Source: Acidobacteriaceae bacterium (GTDB lineage Bacteria > Acidobacteriota > Terriglobia > Terriglobales > Acidobacteriaceae). From it: a stretch of DNA of 37,193 bases. The notes beneath the pieces are model-generated. The model was not told the origin of the DNA and searched no databases. It saw only the letters and a program-made list of their open reading frames with translations. The position numbers and the translations under genes were made by a program. The stretch covers positions 1 through 37,193 of the forward strand of contig JASHQQ010000399.1 of assembly GCA_030039035.1 (NCBI GenBank). Reading direction: 5' to 3'. The first letter of the stretch is position 1. Each line of letters opens with the position of its first letter. This document shows, piece after piece, positions 3,170-20,901 of the stretch.

Positions 3170-3502
3170 TCAGAGTATCGTTTCAAACCCCTTCCGCCGG
3201 ATCACATTGAGCAGCGCCAGCGCCGGGCCTTTGGGCTGCTTGGCGCCGCGCTCAAGCTGGGAGATGTAGCCCGGGGTGAGATTCAGGTAGCGGGCGAAGG
3301 CGGCCTGGCTGAGGTTGGCGCTCTCGCGCATTCTCTTGATCTCTCGCGCCCCGATCGGCTTCGCGGTCGAAATGGGCTTCACGCCGAGATGGCGGACCGT
3401 GATTCTTTCGTAGGCGGCATCGTCCATCACGCCGATGCGGTGCATATCCTCGGCCGTTTCGAGGATCGCTTCGGCCAACTTGCTCAACTTCTTCTTTGCC
3501 AT
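3170..3502 (-). CDS. HigA-like XRE-family antitoxin
   Basis: The 110-residue protein has a lysine-rich start MAKKKLSKLAEAILETAED and a C-terminal helix-turn-helix (about residues 55-105) reading REIKRMRESANLSQAAFARY then LNLTPGYISQLERGAKQPKG, typical of XRE antitoxins. It should neutralise the toxin encoded immediately upstream and repress the shared promoter. The ATG at 3502 is chosen over an in-frame upstream start because the conserved antitoxin N-terminus begins there. The ATG lies inside the toxin frame (coupled translation), with an unusually long overlap of 251 bp because the toxin frame does not stop nearby. Confidence 0.88.
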   Translation of the reverse strand: MAKKKLSKLAEAILETAEDMHRIGVMDDAAYERITVRHLGVKPISTAKPIGAREIKRMRESANLSQAAFARYLNLTPGYISQLERGAKQPKGPALALLNVIRRKGFETIL

Positions 3503-3866
3503 ACAACACCTCGATGAGCGATCCTTCGCGTATGCCGTGAGCAATCCGTTCTTTCTCGGCCGGAAGCAAGATGGCGGCGATCTCGCGCGCGGCTTCCAGT
3601 TCGTTCACTGCGAAGTTCTCCCGATCGCTCTTAGCCAATCCGAAGACGAACACTGCGCGGTGCTTCGTTCTGTAGGCAATCACCGTACGGTATCCGCCGG
3701 ATCTTCCTTGCCCCTTGCGCGCCACCCGCTGTTTGATGAGTCCCCCACCCAAATCGGCGTCGATGAGGCCCCTGTCTGCTCTCTTGACGGCCTCGATCAG
3801 ACTTCCGGCTTCGAGCCCCTCACGGCGCGCATATCGCGCAAACCACCTCGTCATGAAGACACGCAT
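3252..3866 (-). CDS. RelE/HigB-type toxin with an extended out-of-frame tail
   Basis: Residues 1-120 (MRVFMTRWFARYARREGLEA... GGLIKQRVARKGQGRSGGYR ... AVFVFGLAKSDRENF) match the RelE/ParE-superfamily subgroup in which 'GGLIKQRVAR' and 'GQGRSGGYRT' are hallmarks. The family is about 115-125 residues of ribosome-dependent mRNA interferase or related toxins. Here the frame continues for ~82 more codons across the antitoxin gene in another frame, ending at 3252. That tail is Arg/Pro-rich and unlike any toxin domain, so it probably reflects loss of the original stop. ATG 3866 is preferred over an in-frame GTG at 3881, because the likely -10 box is at 3887-3892. Whether the extended protein is active is unknown. 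Confidence 0.8.
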   Translation of the reverse strand: MRVFMTRWFARYARREGLEAGSLIEAVKRADRGLIDADLGGGLIKQRVARKGQGRSGGYRTVIAYRTKHRAVFVFGLAKSDRENFAVNELEAAREIAAILLPAEKERIAHGIREGSLIEVLYGKEEVEQVGRSDPRNGRGYAPHRRDGRCRLRKNHGPPSRREAHFDREADRGARDQENARERQPQPGRLRPLPESHPGLHLPA

Positions 3867-3874
3867 GCCGGAGC

Positions 3875-3906
3875 CTGACACTTTGAACTATAGCACATAT
3901 TGTCAG
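3875..3906 (-). promoter_or_regulatory. Candidate promoter and operator of the toxin-antitoxin pair
   Basis: Read on the minus strand, CTGACA and TGTCAG form an inverted repeat (3901-3906 and 3875-3880). They flank a good -10 hexamer TATAGT (3892-3887); a weak -35 (TCCAGA) lies 17 bp upstream of it. The -10 would start transcription ~14 nt before the ATG at 3866. A palindrome around the -10 fits autorepression by the XRE antitoxin, as is usual for such pairs. This is inference from position only. Confidence 0.45.
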
Positions 3907-4647: not shown

Positions 4648-4816
4648 GTGTCTCCTCGCGGATTGTCACATTTTTGATGCTGTCTGCGCGGCGCGAAGCA
4701 ATGACGACGCCTGCGATCCTGCAGCTTGGACGCCCATACAACGGGAAATCTTTGCGTGCGAGGGGCCAATTGCACCACCGCATGTGAAATCCACAGAATT
4801 GATGCTGGTTATTCAC

Positions 4817-4846
4817 TTGAATCCACAGATCGACTTCGCCTATTGT
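4817..4846 (+). promoter_or_regulatory. Promoter of intergenic RNA copy 1
   Basis: A -35 box TTGAAT (4817-4822) and -10 box TATTGT (4841-4846) are separated by 18 bp. The same arrangement, TTGCAT-18-TATTGT, is found upstream of copy 2 (8207-8236). A further conserved box TCCACAGAATT lies 27 bp upstream of the -35 (4790-4800). Confidence 0.6.
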
Positions 4847-4851
4847 CTCTT

Positions 4852-5179
4852 TCAGCAGGCAACCCCGTAGTGATCGGTGATTCATCGCTGGCTTGGCCAG
4901 AGGTGGAGATTCGAGAGCAGGCGGAGAGACACAGGCTGACTTGGGCCGCAAGGCAAAAGATCTGAGCCAGCGAGACGAACGCATCGGCGGCGCGAGTCGA
5001 AGGTGCACGAAACGAGCTGGTTTGGAGATTCACCGCAAGGTGAGGTTGGCAGGTGGAAAACCCGAATGAGATTGGAGATTCATCACCGGCTCCGAGCCGG
5101 AGGGTGACTGACCCGATCCTCCTATGAGATTGCCCATGAATACGCCAGAGGCCGAAAGGTCTCTGGCGTTTTCGTTTTT
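4852..5179 (+). ncRNA. Candidate structured non-coding RNA, copy 1 (~328 nt)
   Basis: A plus-strand unit runs from a sigma70-type promoter to an intrinsic terminator, with no convincing reading frame. It is homologous to 8242-8564: the same order CTATTGTCTCTTT, CCCGTA, GATCGG.GATTCATCGC and ending CGCCAGAGGCC-GAAA-GGTCTCTGGCG. Pairings visible: GGCAA (4858-4862) with TTGCC (5130-5134); GATCGG (4872-4877) with CCGATC (5113-5118); hairpin CATC-TGGC-TTG-GCCA-GGTG near 4883-4906; TCACC-GCAA-GGTGA (GNRA tetraloop) near 5030-5043; CCGGCT-CCG-AGCCGG near 5086-5100. The motif GGAGATT recurs inside it. It lies between two genes transcribed on the minus strand, so it is not a leader of either. I do not recognise the family; an existing Rfam family cannot be excluded. 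Confidence 0.7.
5143..5179 (+). terminator. Intrinsic terminator of RNA copy 1
   Basis: Stem CGCCAGAGGCC / GGTCTCTGGCG (one G.U pair) is closed by a GAAA tetraloop and followed by TTTTCGTTTTT. The stem-loop is identical to that at 8530-8555. Confidence 0.9.
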
Positions 5180-5229
5180 GCCGGAATCTTCGGCTCGGAT
5201 CAGCCGATCCGGGTTCGCCTCTTCCGGAA

Positions 5230-5296
5230 CAAAAAATCCCCGGCGAGGAGGGTTTGGAAAACCATCGCTGATTTTCCTCGACCTCCCCGCCGGGGG
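5230..5296 (-). terminator. Likely terminator of the TIGR03118-like gene
   Basis: On the minus strand CCCCGGCGGGGAGG (5295-5282) pairs with CCTCCTCGCCGGGG (with one G.U), followed by ATTTTTTG. The loop of ~30 nt is long, but the position just after the minus-strand stop codon at 5368 and the T run support a terminator. Confidence 0.65.
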
Positions 5297-5367
5297 CTCA
5301 GATTTGCGGTGCCTGTGCCGCGAAGAGCATTGCGATCGGACCCGATTCCTTCCCGGGCTCCGGCCTC

Positions 5368-7287
5368 TTACCAGCCTCCTCCGCCGCTGATGGTGTAGCT
5401 GGCTGTCGCTACCGTGCTTTGCGACCAGCCGGGCGCCACGGCGATGGCGTGGATGGTCATGCTGGTGGAAACCGATATCGCCGATTTGTAGACCGGGGAG
5501 CTCGTCGTGGGCGTCGAGCCGTCGACGGTGTAATAGATCACCGCTCCCGAGGTGCTGTCGGAGAGGGTCACATTCTGCGAAGACGAGTAACTTCCTCCCA
5601 CCGGCAGGAAGCTGGGTGTGGCTGTGGGGCTGGAACTGGCGTTGATGGTGTACGCGGCTTCGACGGTCGGGCTGGGCGCCATGCCGGACGCCGAGGCATA
5701 GGCCCAGAGAGTCGTAGTCTTCGCGACCGGGATCGGCTTTGAATAGACGGACCATTTCGATGCCGGCGTCGAACTGTCCAGCGTGTAGTAGATCGTGGCG
5801 TGCGGAGTAGTGTCGCTCAACATTACGTTTTGCGCCGTCGAGTAGGTTCCGACCGCAGGCGAGAAGGTTGGCGCCGCGGCGGTCGGGTTCTGGATCGTCT
5901 CGGTCAGGGATCCGGAACTCTTGCCGAAGTTTGCGTCTCCGGAATAGGCGGCGTCCACCGTGTGCTTGCCCACGGCAAGGCTGCTCACGCTCACGGTCGC
6001 ATGCGCTGTGCTGTCGACGGCGACGGGCGGGAGCTTGCTGCTGTCCACGGTGAAGGTCACATGGCCTTCGGGCTCGCCGAATCCGCTGTCAGGCTGCACC
6101 AGGGCCGTGAAGCTGATCTTTTCCCCCTTGCCTCCGGGGTTGGCGTCGGAAGCGACGGTCGTTTTGGTATTGGTGACCTTGGCCGAGGCCACCGTGATCG
6201 TCCCGAAGAGGCCGGCCGATCCATCGTTCAGGCCCGCGGCGAAGTAGAGCGTGCCGGGGTCGCCGACCAGACCTTTCTCGCCGAAGACGATCTCCCAAAG
6301 GCCGGGATTGGCGATCAGGTTGCCGCTGGGATCGGCGATCTGGCCTTCGTATTTGTACGGGGTGCTGCTCATGCTGTAGGCCGAAATGGTTCCGTCGGCA
6401 AAGTTGCCCACCAGCAGGTCGCCGCCGAACTCGCCGAAAGTCGCCGGAGCAATGGCCATTCCCCATGGGGCGTTGAGCCAATCGTCGACCGGGATGACGC
6501 GGCCGAGCAAGCTGCCGGTCTCGCTGAACTCGTCGACGAAGCCTTTGCCCGGCGCGTAATTCCGCGAGGGCGCATAGGTCACGTAGACGTTGCCGTTGAG
6601 CACGTGTACGCCGAAGGGCGCATACCCGGCCGGGAGATGCGGATCCTTGAACGCATCTGCCATGGTTTGCTTCCAGGTGCTGCTGTAGACCTCGACACCG
6701 GCTTTCGCGCCGGAGTTCGCCAGCAGGATGAAAGAGCCCTTTGCAGTGGTCATCAGGGCCATGCCGGTATAGGCCGCGCTGGCCTTATGGTTATTGACGG
6801 CAATGATGGCGTCGCCGCCCGAGGTCGTGGACCAGCCGGAAACCGTGCCGTCGATGGAGCAAAAGAGGAACAGCGGCGTGGACTTGTCAGGAAGCTCGAA
6901 GCTGCCCTTGGCGAGGCCGCCGGTGTAGACCGTGCCGGTGGGCGAGCCTTTGCCGCTGCCCGAGGCCGGAGGAATGGTCACCGTGAAGGTGATTGCGCCA
7001 TTGGCGCCGGCCACATAATCCAGGCCCGAGCCCGTGGTGTTGATCCAGAACGCCGGCCCGAGCGAGACGCCCCACGGGTCGATGAAATTCGAATCCGTCA
7101 CCTTTGCGTCCACCGAGCCATTCGAGATCAGGTTGGTTTGCAGGTAGCCCTTGGGCGCGGTGGCATGGGCCGGGCAGGCCAGGAAGGCAATACCCAGCGA
7201 AATGCCGGCAAGCGCGACGGCGAGCGAAGCGCGACGGCGGTTTTTTCCTTTGGGAATCGAACGGGCAGTGGGAGTGCGGTGCGGCAT
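5368..7287 (-). CDS. Secreted TIGR03118-family protein with Ig-like and two chitobiase-type C-terminal repeats
   Basis: The 639-residue product has an Arg-rich N-terminus and a signal peptide ending near CPAHA. Residues ~45-370 form a beta-propeller-like body of the TIGR03118 type (for example NFIDPWGVSLGPAFW, SSTWKQTMADAFKDPHLPAG, NGNVYVTYA, NAPWGMAIAP, GDLLVGNFADGTIS, LWEIVFGEKG). Residues ~373-469 look like a bacterial Ig-like repeat (TVDAAYSGDANF). Two CHB_HEX_C-type repeats follow, at ~470-550 and ~552-637, each with the signature TIYYTLDSSTP or VIYYTVDGSTP. The start at 7287 is chosen because AAAGAGGA lies 6 nt upstream; an ATG two codons earlier overlaps that site. The role is unknown; extracellular glycan or surface binding is a reasonable guess. 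No PEP-CTERM signal is seen at the C-terminus (ends SGGGGW). Confidence 0.85.
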   Translation of the reverse strand: MPHRTPTARSIPKGKNRRRASLAVALAGISLGIAFLACPAHATAPKGYLQTNLISNGSVDAKVTDSNFIDPWGVSLGPAFWINTTGSGLDYVAGANGAITFTVTIPPASGSGKGSPTGTVYTGGLAKGSFELPDKSTPLFLFCSIDGTVSGWSTTSGGDAIIAVNNHKASAAYTGMALMTTAKGSFILLANSGAKAGVEVYSSTWKQTMADAFKDPHLPAGYAPFGVHVLNGNVYVTYAPSRNYAPGKGFVDEFSETGSLLGRVIPVDDWLNAPWGMAIAPATFGEFGGDLLVGNFADGTISAYSMSSTPYKYEGQIADPSGNLIANPGLWEIVFGEKGLVGDPGTLYFAAGLNDGSAGLFGTITVASAKVTNTKTTVASDANPGGKGEKISFTALVQPDSGFGEPEGHVTFTVDSSKLPPVAVDSTAHATVSVSSLAVGKHTVDAAYSGDANFGKSSGSLTETIQNPTAAAPTFSPAVGTYSTAQNVMLSDTTPHATIYYTLDSSTPASKWSVYSKPIPVAKTTTLWAYASASGMAPSPTVEAAYTINASSSPTATPSFLPVGGSYSSSQNVTLSDSTSGAVIYYTVDGSTPTTSSPVYKSAISVSTSMTIHAIAVAPGWSQSTVATASYTISGGGGW

Positions 7288-7493
7288 GGACATTCCTCTT
7301 TCGCTTTCAGGTTCTGCGGCAGACAACGCGAGTCATCGCTGCAGAAGGTATCGAATCAGAATGTAGGGCAAACGAGGGACCAGGTTGTCCCCCAATTGTC
7401 ATTGTTTTGTAATAGGTGACCCGGGGAATCGTTTCGGGTATGGAACTGGAGAAAGGCTGGACGGGAGTCGGGGCTGCCGGCGCTCGTTAAGGG

Positions 7494-8087
7494 TCAATTG
7501 GCGCCAATGGCCGCAATCCACCCGGCGGCATTGGTTACGCTGGCCAGCCGGGGAAAGACCTTTTCGACAAGGCACGAATGAACCTCGGCGTCCTGGTCGA
7601 GGCAGGCATCCTTGACCACGATGACGCGGTAGTCGGCATCGATGGCGTGCAGCAGCGTGGCCAGAACCACGCCGCTGGTGGCGATGCCGACGAGCACGAG
7701 CGTGTCGATTTCGCCGGCGCGAAGGATCATCTCGAGATCGGTTCCGGCAAAGGCGCTGATGCGGTGCTTGGTGACGACGACTTCGTCGCCTTGCGGCGCT
7801 ACGTCGGGGTGAATCGCGCCGGAGGGACCCTGAAAGATCTGCTGCCATTGCGGCGAACTCCTGATGGCGGCGAAGAGGGCATTGCGCGCGCTGATCTCGG
7901 GCAAGCCGGGGCGAAATCCGACCTGGACGTGAAGGACCCGGATGCCGCGAGCGCGGGCGGCGGCAAGAACGCTTGCGACGCGAGGCACGAACTCGTCCTG
8001 ACCCTTGGCGTAGATTGACACAATAGCGGCCTGGAGGTCCATGCTGAGGACCGCGGTGCGGGCAGGATCGGGAATCAGGTTGGCCAT
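7494..8087 (-). CDS. Isochorismatase-family (cysteine hydrolase-like) protein lacking the catalytic Cys
   Basis: The 197-residue protein has the isochorismatase/nicotinamidase alpha/beta fold: catalytic-type Asp in VLSMDLQ (D17), Lys in VTKHRISAF (K107), and the 'GIATSGVVLATLLHAIDADY' segment (134-153) followed by CLDQDAEVHSCLVEKVFPR. In active hydrolases the seventh residue of GxATxxC is the Cys nucleophile; here it is Val (V140). This GIATSGVV form recurs in a known subgroup, so it is probably not a sequencing error, but the classical thioester chemistry would not be possible with it. Substrate unknown, cytoplasmic. It is transcribed away from RNA copy 2. Confidence 0.85.
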   Translation of the reverse strand: MANLIPDPARTAVLSMDLQAAIVSIYAKGQDEFVPRVASVLAAARARGIRVLHVQVGFRPGLPEISARNALFAAIRSSPQWQQIFQGPSGAIHPDVAPQGDEVVVTKHRISAFAGTDLEMILRAGEIDTLVLVGIATSGVVLATLLHAIDADYRVIVVKDACLDQDAEVHSCLVEKVFPRLASVTNAAGWIAAIGAN

Positions 8088-8206
8088 GGTTTCTTACCTT
8101 ACCCTAAGTGAGGCCTAAGTTGGGAACCTGGAGGGCCAGGTAGATAAGTCGGGAATCAATTTGCACCAGGACAGGTGATATCCACAGAATTCTTCGTTTT
8201 TTGCAC

Positions 8207-8236
8207 TTGCATTCACAGGCGTGAAATCCCTATTGT
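8207..8236 (+). promoter_or_regulatory. Promoter of intergenic RNA copy 2
   Basis: TTGCAT (8207-8212) and TATTGT (8231-8236) are spaced by 18 bp, matching copy 1. The upstream box TCCACAGAATT (8181-8191) and the run CAATTTGCACCA (8157-8168) also match the copy 1 upstream region. Confidence 0.6.
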
Positions 8237-8241
8237 CTCTT

Positions 8242-8564
8242 TAGCTGGTGAGCCCGTAAGAGATCGGAGATTCATCGCAGGCCAGAGCCGGTGATGCGAG
8301 ATTCGATTGAAGCCGGAAATTCGCCGCTGACCCGGAAAGAAGGTGCGGATTCGGGGGAACTCGAGGAATGCGTCGCCGGTGAAAGCCGGAGGAGCAGGAG
8401 ACGGGGGAAGCCGAAGAGGCATCGCCGGACTGGGCCGGAAGGCGCAGTCTCTGATTGACATTGGAGATTCATCGCTGGTATAGCCGGCGCGTGAAGTCTC
8501 CGATCCGACTGCGAGTTTACCCACGAAGGCGCCAGAGGCCGAAAGGTCTCTGGCGTTTTCGTTT
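8242..8564 (+). ncRNA. Candidate structured non-coding RNA, copy 2 (~323 nt)
   Basis: Homologue of 4852-5179 with the same promoter and terminator. Long-range pairings: GGTGA (8247-8251) with TTACC (8517-8521), the counterpart of GGCAA/TTGCC in copy 1, hence compensating changes; and GATCGGAGA (8262-8270) with TCTCCGATC (8497-8505), extended by TTCA/TGAA across a bulge. Local hairpins include CATCGC-GGC-CAGA-GCC-GTGATG near 8274-8296 and GCTGG-TATAG-CCGGC near 8474-8488. Several related modules with GCCGG stems lie between (for example near 8372-8392 and 8419-8440). GGAGATTCATCGC occurs at both ends of the interior. The terminator ends 70 bp before the TTG start of the VOC gene, so a separate RNA is more likely than a leader. 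Family not recognised. Confidence 0.7.
8530..8564 (+). terminator. Intrinsic terminator of RNA copy 2
   Basis: The same CGCCAGAGGCC-GAAA-GGTCTCTGGCG stem-loop as copy 1, followed by TTTTCGTTT. Confidence 0.9.
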
Positions 8565-8633
8565 CTGCATGAATATAAAATCCCGAAGGGAGCAGCGCGC
8601 CCGCGCATCGCATCGCCCCTGAGGAGGCGCCGG

Positions 8634-13220: not shown

Positions 13221-13372
13221 GGCGCGGGTAGAGAAGCTCCCTCACCCAAGTGTAGCGCGCGGTCGGTCCGAAACACTCGATTCGGCGGCCGGCCCCGGGG
13301 CAATCGCATGAAGGAGATTCATTGCTTCGGGAGGTTACAACTGTCCGCGCCGTAGGCGCAAAGTCGGTTAGC

Positions 13373-13392
13373 CCAGCGTTTCAACGCTGGGA
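13373..13392. repeat. Interspersed hairpin (REP-like)
   Basis: CCCAGCG-TTTCAA-CGCTGGG is a perfect 7-bp inverted repeat next to a second one, GCCCCGCAGGGGC (about 13419-13431). Such hairpin pairs without genes resemble interspersed repeats of Acidobacteriota intergenic DNA. No function is assigned. Confidence 0.5.
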
Positions 13393-20827: not shown

Positions 20828-20901
20828 TGGGCGATCGTTCAATGGTAGGACAGTGCCCTTTGGAGGCACTTATCCAGGTTCGAATCCTGGTCGCCCAGCC
20901 A
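20828..20901 (+). tRNA. tRNA-Gln (anticodon UUG)
   Basis: A complete cloverleaf. Acceptor TGGGCGA/TCGCCCA, anticodon stem GTGCC/GGCAC with loop CTTTGGA giving anticodon TTG, and T arm CCAGG-TTCGAAT-CCTGG. G is the discriminator and CCA is encoded (20899-20901). It reads CAA codons. It sits 46 bp before the prs start and may be co-transcribed with it. Confidence 0.96.

Follow-up and report, generated by a model that had tools for sequence, protein, structure and literature searches.

What are two similar intergenic units of unknown class doing in the genome of an Acidobacteriaceae bacterium? Both lie on the plus strand of a 37,193-nt stretch of contig JASHQQ010000399.1 (assembly GCA_030039035.1; hereafter the window), and the initial annotation took them for paralogous structured RNAs of about 325 nt. 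It is almost certain, in our view, that they belong to a family of long, stand-alone noncoding RNAs in Acidobacteriaceae that has its own promoter, an intrinsic terminator and a phased array of ~49-nt two-hairpin modules with purine-rich linkers; that the family is transcribed is an inference.

The two copies are indeed paralogous: in a BLAST search of the whole genome, positions 4770-5187 and 8161-8574 share 68% identity over ~410 nt (E 2.4e-25), and no third copy was found. Their terminator 24-mer occurs at two sites only in the 5.9 Mb genome, those of copies 1 and 2, and its reversed control at none. Promoter, 5' end and terminator are present in both where they had first been read, with an 18-nt gap between the -35 and -10 elements (Table 1). 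The copies have in common an upstream ATCCACAGAATT, GAGATTCATC modules and an identical GCCAGAGGCCGAAAGGTCTCTGGCGTTTTCGTTT terminator. An upstream box had been singled out as a shared element; it exists, as ATCCACAGAATT, but is only part of a ~110-nt conserved region that comprises upstream and 5' sequence. Each copy folds better than all 100 of its shuffles. The lowest-energy fold of copy 1 is a long imperfect rod, not a string of beads, and only three modules are recognisable in it, the outer two 197 nt apart, that is 4 x 49. Copy 2 consists of five consecutive modules. On the minus strand, a gene for a RelE-family toxin-like protein (3252-3881) adjoins copy 1.

Table 1. Features of the two RNA units, in positions of the window.
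Feature	Positions	Strand	Details
Copy 1 promoter region	4771-4852	+	TGCACCA; ATCCACA (4789-4795); TTATTCACT (4809-4817); -35 TTGAAT (4817-4822); ATCCACA (4821-4827); -10 TATTGT (4841-4846)
Copy 1 transcript unit, ~325 nt	4853-5177	+	Start (5' end) deduced from the position of the -10 box; fold z -5.85
Copy 1 module 1	4864-4909	+	R2 covariance model, 17.5 bits
Copy 1 degenerate module	5004-5045	+	R2 covariance model, 9.1 bits
Copy 1 last module, four 49-nt periods (197 nt) past module 1	5061-5109	+	R2 covariance model, 17.5 bits
Copy 1 intrinsic terminator	5142-5177	+	Family-wide GCCAGAG..CTCTGGCGTTTTCGTTT
Copy 2 promoter region	8161-8242	+	TGCACCA; ATCCACA (8180-8186); TTTTGCACT; -35 TTGCAT (8207-8212); ATTCACA (8211-8217); -10 TATTGT (8231-8236)
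Copy 2 transcript unit, ~322 nt	8243-8564	+	5' end inferred; fold z -6.42
Copy 2 module 1	8253-8299	+	R2 covariance model, 13.5 bits
Copy 2 module 2	8302-8348	+	R2 covariance model, 15.6 bits
Copy 2 module 3	8350-8397	+	R2 covariance model, 23.7 bits
Copy 2 module 4	8400-8447	+	R2 covariance model, 21.0 bits
Copy 2 module 5	8450-8496	+	R2 covariance model, 9.1 bits
Copy 2 intrinsic terminator	8530-8564	+	GCCAGAGGCCGAAAGGTCTCTGGCGTTTTCGTTT, identical in copy 1

Homologues were searched for with a sequence profile, R1, and then with R3, to which other genera had been added. They occur in 43 of the 50 genomes sampled from the bacterium's own genus (the Terracidiphilus/Occallatibacter group; sequence profile) and, patchily, outside it, in 13 genomes of four other Acidobacteriaceae genera, one of them labelled Granulicella; two of these matches are weak (E 2e-4 and 9e-4). 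The profile search of 399 genomes of the class gave only one match outside the family, in G545; it lies on a short contig of a bin that is 85% complete and 5% contaminated, and probably reflects contamination. When 84,980 species were scanned with a promoter-core pattern, 52 stretches were returned, and all but two carry an Acidobacteriaceae or Acidobacteria label, among them stretches from Terracidiphilus gabretensis and Occallatibacter savannae; the two Bacillota matches (L112 and L123) lack the 5' motif and were taken as chance. A phage or plasmid origin was considered and rejected, the search having yielded no phage or plasmid match to the RNA. Among the genomes searched, the RNA is confined to the family Acidobacteriaceae, apart from the one probable contaminant. 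In one close relative the two copies are laid out as in the window, and at another locus (L083, G033:C66) two full-length copies of ~606 and 609 nt stand close together in tandem. Four nearly complete genomes of the same genus (G004, G011, G134 and G270) have no match to the promoter profile and are candidates for natural loss.

Against 60 relatives, BLAST of either unit gave two distinct matches, one at the promoter region and one at the terminator, with 400-1140 nt between them; family members therefore differ in length. All follow one plan: the promoter is followed by the sequence motif CARYTGRTGACCCNGTAGGG at the 5' end, then by a body whose length varies, and last by the terminator. The distance from promoter to terminator is 270-1160 nt in the family, and sixty complete units span 272-1156 nt. 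The window copies are thus short members of the family: the length of ~325 nt first assigned to these RNAs holds for them, but it is the short form, other members reaching ~1160 nt.

The promoter region, conserved in 57 units (alignment A1), is the most conserved part of the family. Its elements are TGCACCA-N4-TGGTG (mainly in the same genus), WTNCACA, TTTTGCACTTG, a -35 sharing bases with a second WTNCACA, and a -10 that reads TAnnnT in most units. With zero mismatches allowed, the promoter core pattern was found only at the units in the four genomes scanned. The upstream WTNCACA (box 1) is present in 70/70 units, 30-32 bp from the downstream box; box 2, WTWTNCAC, is found in 66/70 and box 3, NNWTNCACA, in 62/70. 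In the window, three such DnaA-box-like sites are seen at 4771-4827 and again at 8161-8217, the outer two 30-32 bp apart, as in all 70 units. The promoter boxes resemble the DnaA box TTWTNCACA in the places where variation is tolerated (W at position 3, N at position 5), but boxes 1 and 3 deviate from it at positions 1-2. No DnaA-type boxes were found near dnaA, so that there is no comparison set for the promoter boxes. Through them the RNA may be linked to replication, or another regulator may bind there; control of the promoter by DnaA is no more than a lead.

At the 5' end, the motif CARYTGRTGACCCNGTAGGG shows no significant covariation among its pairing columns and is conserved as sequence. 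The terminator is Rho-independent, with a U-rich tail and the consensus GCGCCAGRGRC...GTCTCTGGCGTTTTCGTTT, in which GCCAGAG...CTCTGGC is common to all units.

Between these ends, the body is built on a strict metre. GNRA-capped hairpins number 646 in the 60 units, against 122.6 +/- 9.5 in dinucleotide shuffles, roughly a fivefold enrichment; strict hairpins with any tetraloop rise only from 650 (shuffled) to 827 (observed), and UNCG loops are hardly enriched. The spacing between GNRA hairpins peaks at ~49, 98, 147, 196, 245 and 294 nt, with a best period of 49.25. Whole-unit lengths are quantised too: of the periods scanned from 30 to 80, 49.0 nt fits best (Rayleigh p ~4e-9 on distinct lengths), and the lengths correspond to roughly 5-23 modules per RNA, varying between species. 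Each module comprises a first hairpin, H1, of six pairs closed by a GNRA loop (mostly GCAA, GCGA or GAAA), a GAUN linker, a triloop hairpin, H2, of the form CAUC-G-CCGGC-NNN-GCCGG-AA-GAUG, and a short purine linker. The short GCCGG-type hairpins noticed in the initial annotation are real, but they are portions of these 49-nt modules. Since 49 is not divisible by 3, no reading frame can run through the array, and a protein-coding array was rejected on this ground.

Modules are 57.5% identical within a unit, 54.8% between units and 60.9% at the same offset across species. As likeness within a unit barely exceeds likeness between species, the modules must be old and not recently duplicated. Their spacing is mostly 47-51 nt. 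We infer that the array has tolerated substitutions more readily than insertions and deletions, and read this as selection on register, or pitch.

To examine the pairing, a covariance model (R2) was built from the module and used to scan 750 kb. It gave 273 matches at E<=0.1, and the best 150 of these 273 all fall inside units, on the correct strand. These 150 modules constitute alignment A3, which is fitted to the structure and partly holds the training modules, and is therefore biased in its favour. In A3, double changes occur in 14 of the 15 pairs, with 173 double-change cells against 66 +/- 8 after shuffling; the covariation score is 0.304 against 0.200 +/- 0.007, a value reached in 0 of 500 shuffles, and the score falls threefold when the partner is slid by one column. 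The exception is the central pair of H2, a near-fixed G-C (GC 125, GU 7) without double change; the other pairs covary. Further support comes from type A modules (ungapped, 49 nt), where the two top covarying column pairs are the outer H1 pairs, with scores of 39.5 and 38.5, where the null reached at most 21.8; these pairs had not been used in selecting the modules. Covariation is weaker in H2 than in H1, and RNAalifold recovered only H1 from modules of mixed lineages, because the register of H2 shifts between lineages; the covariance model resolves this.

One could still read the locus as no functional RNA at all, merely a conserved DNA control region followed by a decaying tandem repeat, given that the promoter region is the best conserved part and the bodies diverge strongly. 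Against it stand the compensatory base changes, a conserved terminator sequence, a quantised length and modules that are not recently duplicated, and we regard this reading as very improbable. The covariation of both module hairpins, together with homologues across one bacterial family and the absence of either unit from Rfam at gathering or permissive thresholds, supports the proposal of an undescribed structured RNA of Acidobacteriota.

Does the RNA serve a neighbouring gene? In 15 loci the upstream neighbour is an aminotransferase gene, and in 25 the downstream one encodes an EmrB-type transporter, without a functional link to the RNA in either case; other neighbours vary, and among the loci examined no neighbour gene tracks the RNA. 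A role in trans is favoured for this reason. A riboswitch or other cis-regulatory leader was rejected: the terminator stands at the 3' end, downstream genes are variable and the commonest of them is on the strand opposite to the RNA unit. The units had been judged at the outset not to be gene leaders, and each does carry a terminator ahead of the next gene.

What we observe is an architecture, its phase and covariation, a conserved promoter and terminator, a non-coding character and a locus that is conserved in part and includes no partner gene. The best explanation overall, held with evenly balanced confidence, is a noncoding array RNA acting as a multivalent platform or sponge. The mechanism itself, in which an as yet unidentified partner is bound, and in which transcription, binding and the direction of effect are all inferred, we put forward with confidence just short of even. 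Many copies of one two-hairpin shape at fixed pitch would offer repeated binding sites for a single partner, most likely an RNA-binding protein, and each transcript would capture or assemble several partner molecules. Capacity would be set by the number of modules and of gene copies, and the timing of synthesis by the conserved upstream sites. Such a role fits because the shape is repeated, the pitch fixed and the number variable, and because the RNA has its own promoter and no linked gene.

CsrB, CsrC and RsmX-Y-Z are the obvious reference, being stand-alone repeated-hairpin RNAs with fast-diverging bodies, a conserved upstream regulatory site and duplicates in some genomes. The array RNA resembles them in its multiple hairpins, in its duplicates and in having, at the sequence level, a promoter and terminator of its own, though no transcript has been shown. 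A sponge of this very type, titrating CsrA through GGA motifs, would account for the multi-hairpin layout, the abundant GGA, the conserved upstream site and the duplicate copies in some genomes. It is nonetheless largely refuted, and we give it hardly any credence: the CsrA domain (PF02599) is absent from 36 of 36 genomes of the genus, in a search that did find it in the control genomes and in three further genera of this class, and GGA, with 1630 occurrences in the units against 1429 expected, is barely enriched and sits at the ends of H1 and in linkers, not in hairpin loops as in CsrB and its kin. The element repeated in the array RNA is a different one, a hairpin with a GNRA cap followed by one with a triloop, and it recurs every 49 nt over up to ~1.16 kb.

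Hfq is present in all genomes searched, and the Rho-independent terminator with its U-rich tail would suit an Hfq-dependent sRNA, or an Hfq sponge, that pairs with mRNAs through the recurrent GAUUCAUC, the array multiplying the target sites; AGATTCAT is observed 36 times against 0.6 expected. We think this unlikely, however: the CAUC of the GAUUCAUC segment is part of the H2 stem, linkers differ between lineages, and extra Hfq-like paralogues do not follow the RNA. G112 carries the RNA alongside a single Hfq, and G060, G064 and G065, with three Hfq each, gave no match to the RNA; the extra paralogues were accordingly rejected as partner. In G000 and 50 other genomes, we counted three Hfq-domain loci in many Acidobacteriaceae (one canonical, two divergent) and one in genera g19 and g24.

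The main structural rival to the platform or sponge is packing by RNA alone. Each module would pack on its neighbours, its GNRA loop received by the conserved G-C pairs of an adjacent H2 helix, and the result would be a solenoid or filament, alone or as an oligomer. The 49-nt pitch kept strict despite sequence divergence, the GNRA loops as the most enriched element and a central H2 pair near-fixed as G-C, as a tertiary receptor would be, all agree with it, and the homo-oligomers formed by GOLLD, ROOL and OLE RNAs are a precedent (PMC12286853). There is, on the other hand, no three-dimensional evidence, the GNRA loops have no matched receptor shown, and the module count varies from ~5 to 23 between species; we consider such a particle a serious but improbable option. 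The boldest reading, and a rather doubtful one, is a solenoid RNA in which a variable number of 49-nt modules, stacked in register, would make a superhelical scaffold, an analogue of repeat proteins, under a replication-linked (DnaA-box-like) promoter.

Rfam 15 holds no relevant match over the units at gathering or permissive thresholds, its GOLLD, ROOL and OLE covariance models do not match them either, and no earlier description of the family was found in the open-access literature. The array RNA is like GOLLD, ROOL and OLE in being a large structured bacterial noncoding RNA with possible self-assembly (PMC12286853), and unlike them, whose architecture is fixed, in being a phased array of variable number without an Rfam match. 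With CRISPR arrays it shares tandem units of constant length within one (inferred) transcript, but its modules are only ~57% identical and it has neither identical repeats nor spacers. The architecture is new as far as we know and matches none of the kinds compared; taken most broadly, the RNA adds one member to the structured noncoding RNAs. We know of no counterpart, among bacterial noncoding RNAs, to an RNA that counts in 49-nt units and whose register outlasts its sequence.

Within one lineage of soil bacteria that are abundant and hard to culture, a long bacterial RNA class absent from Rfam 15 is common; cultured carriers exist, making direct testing possible. If it is a platform, its partner would bring to light, in bacteria devoid of CsrA, a post-transcriptional or assembly system; if it acts as RNA alone, it would be a natural repeat-RNA scaffold.

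Finally, the Rfam scan of the window located on the plus strand the end of a 23S rRNA (1-133), a 5S rRNA (534-649) and a tRNA (20828-20898), and on the minus strand, at 13346-13391, an Acido-Lenti-1 RNA (RF01687, 41.3 bits). The latter, whose function is to our knowledge not established, is also an RNA of Acidobacteria in the same window, but it is 46 nt long, lies on the other strand and is unrelated to the array RNA.
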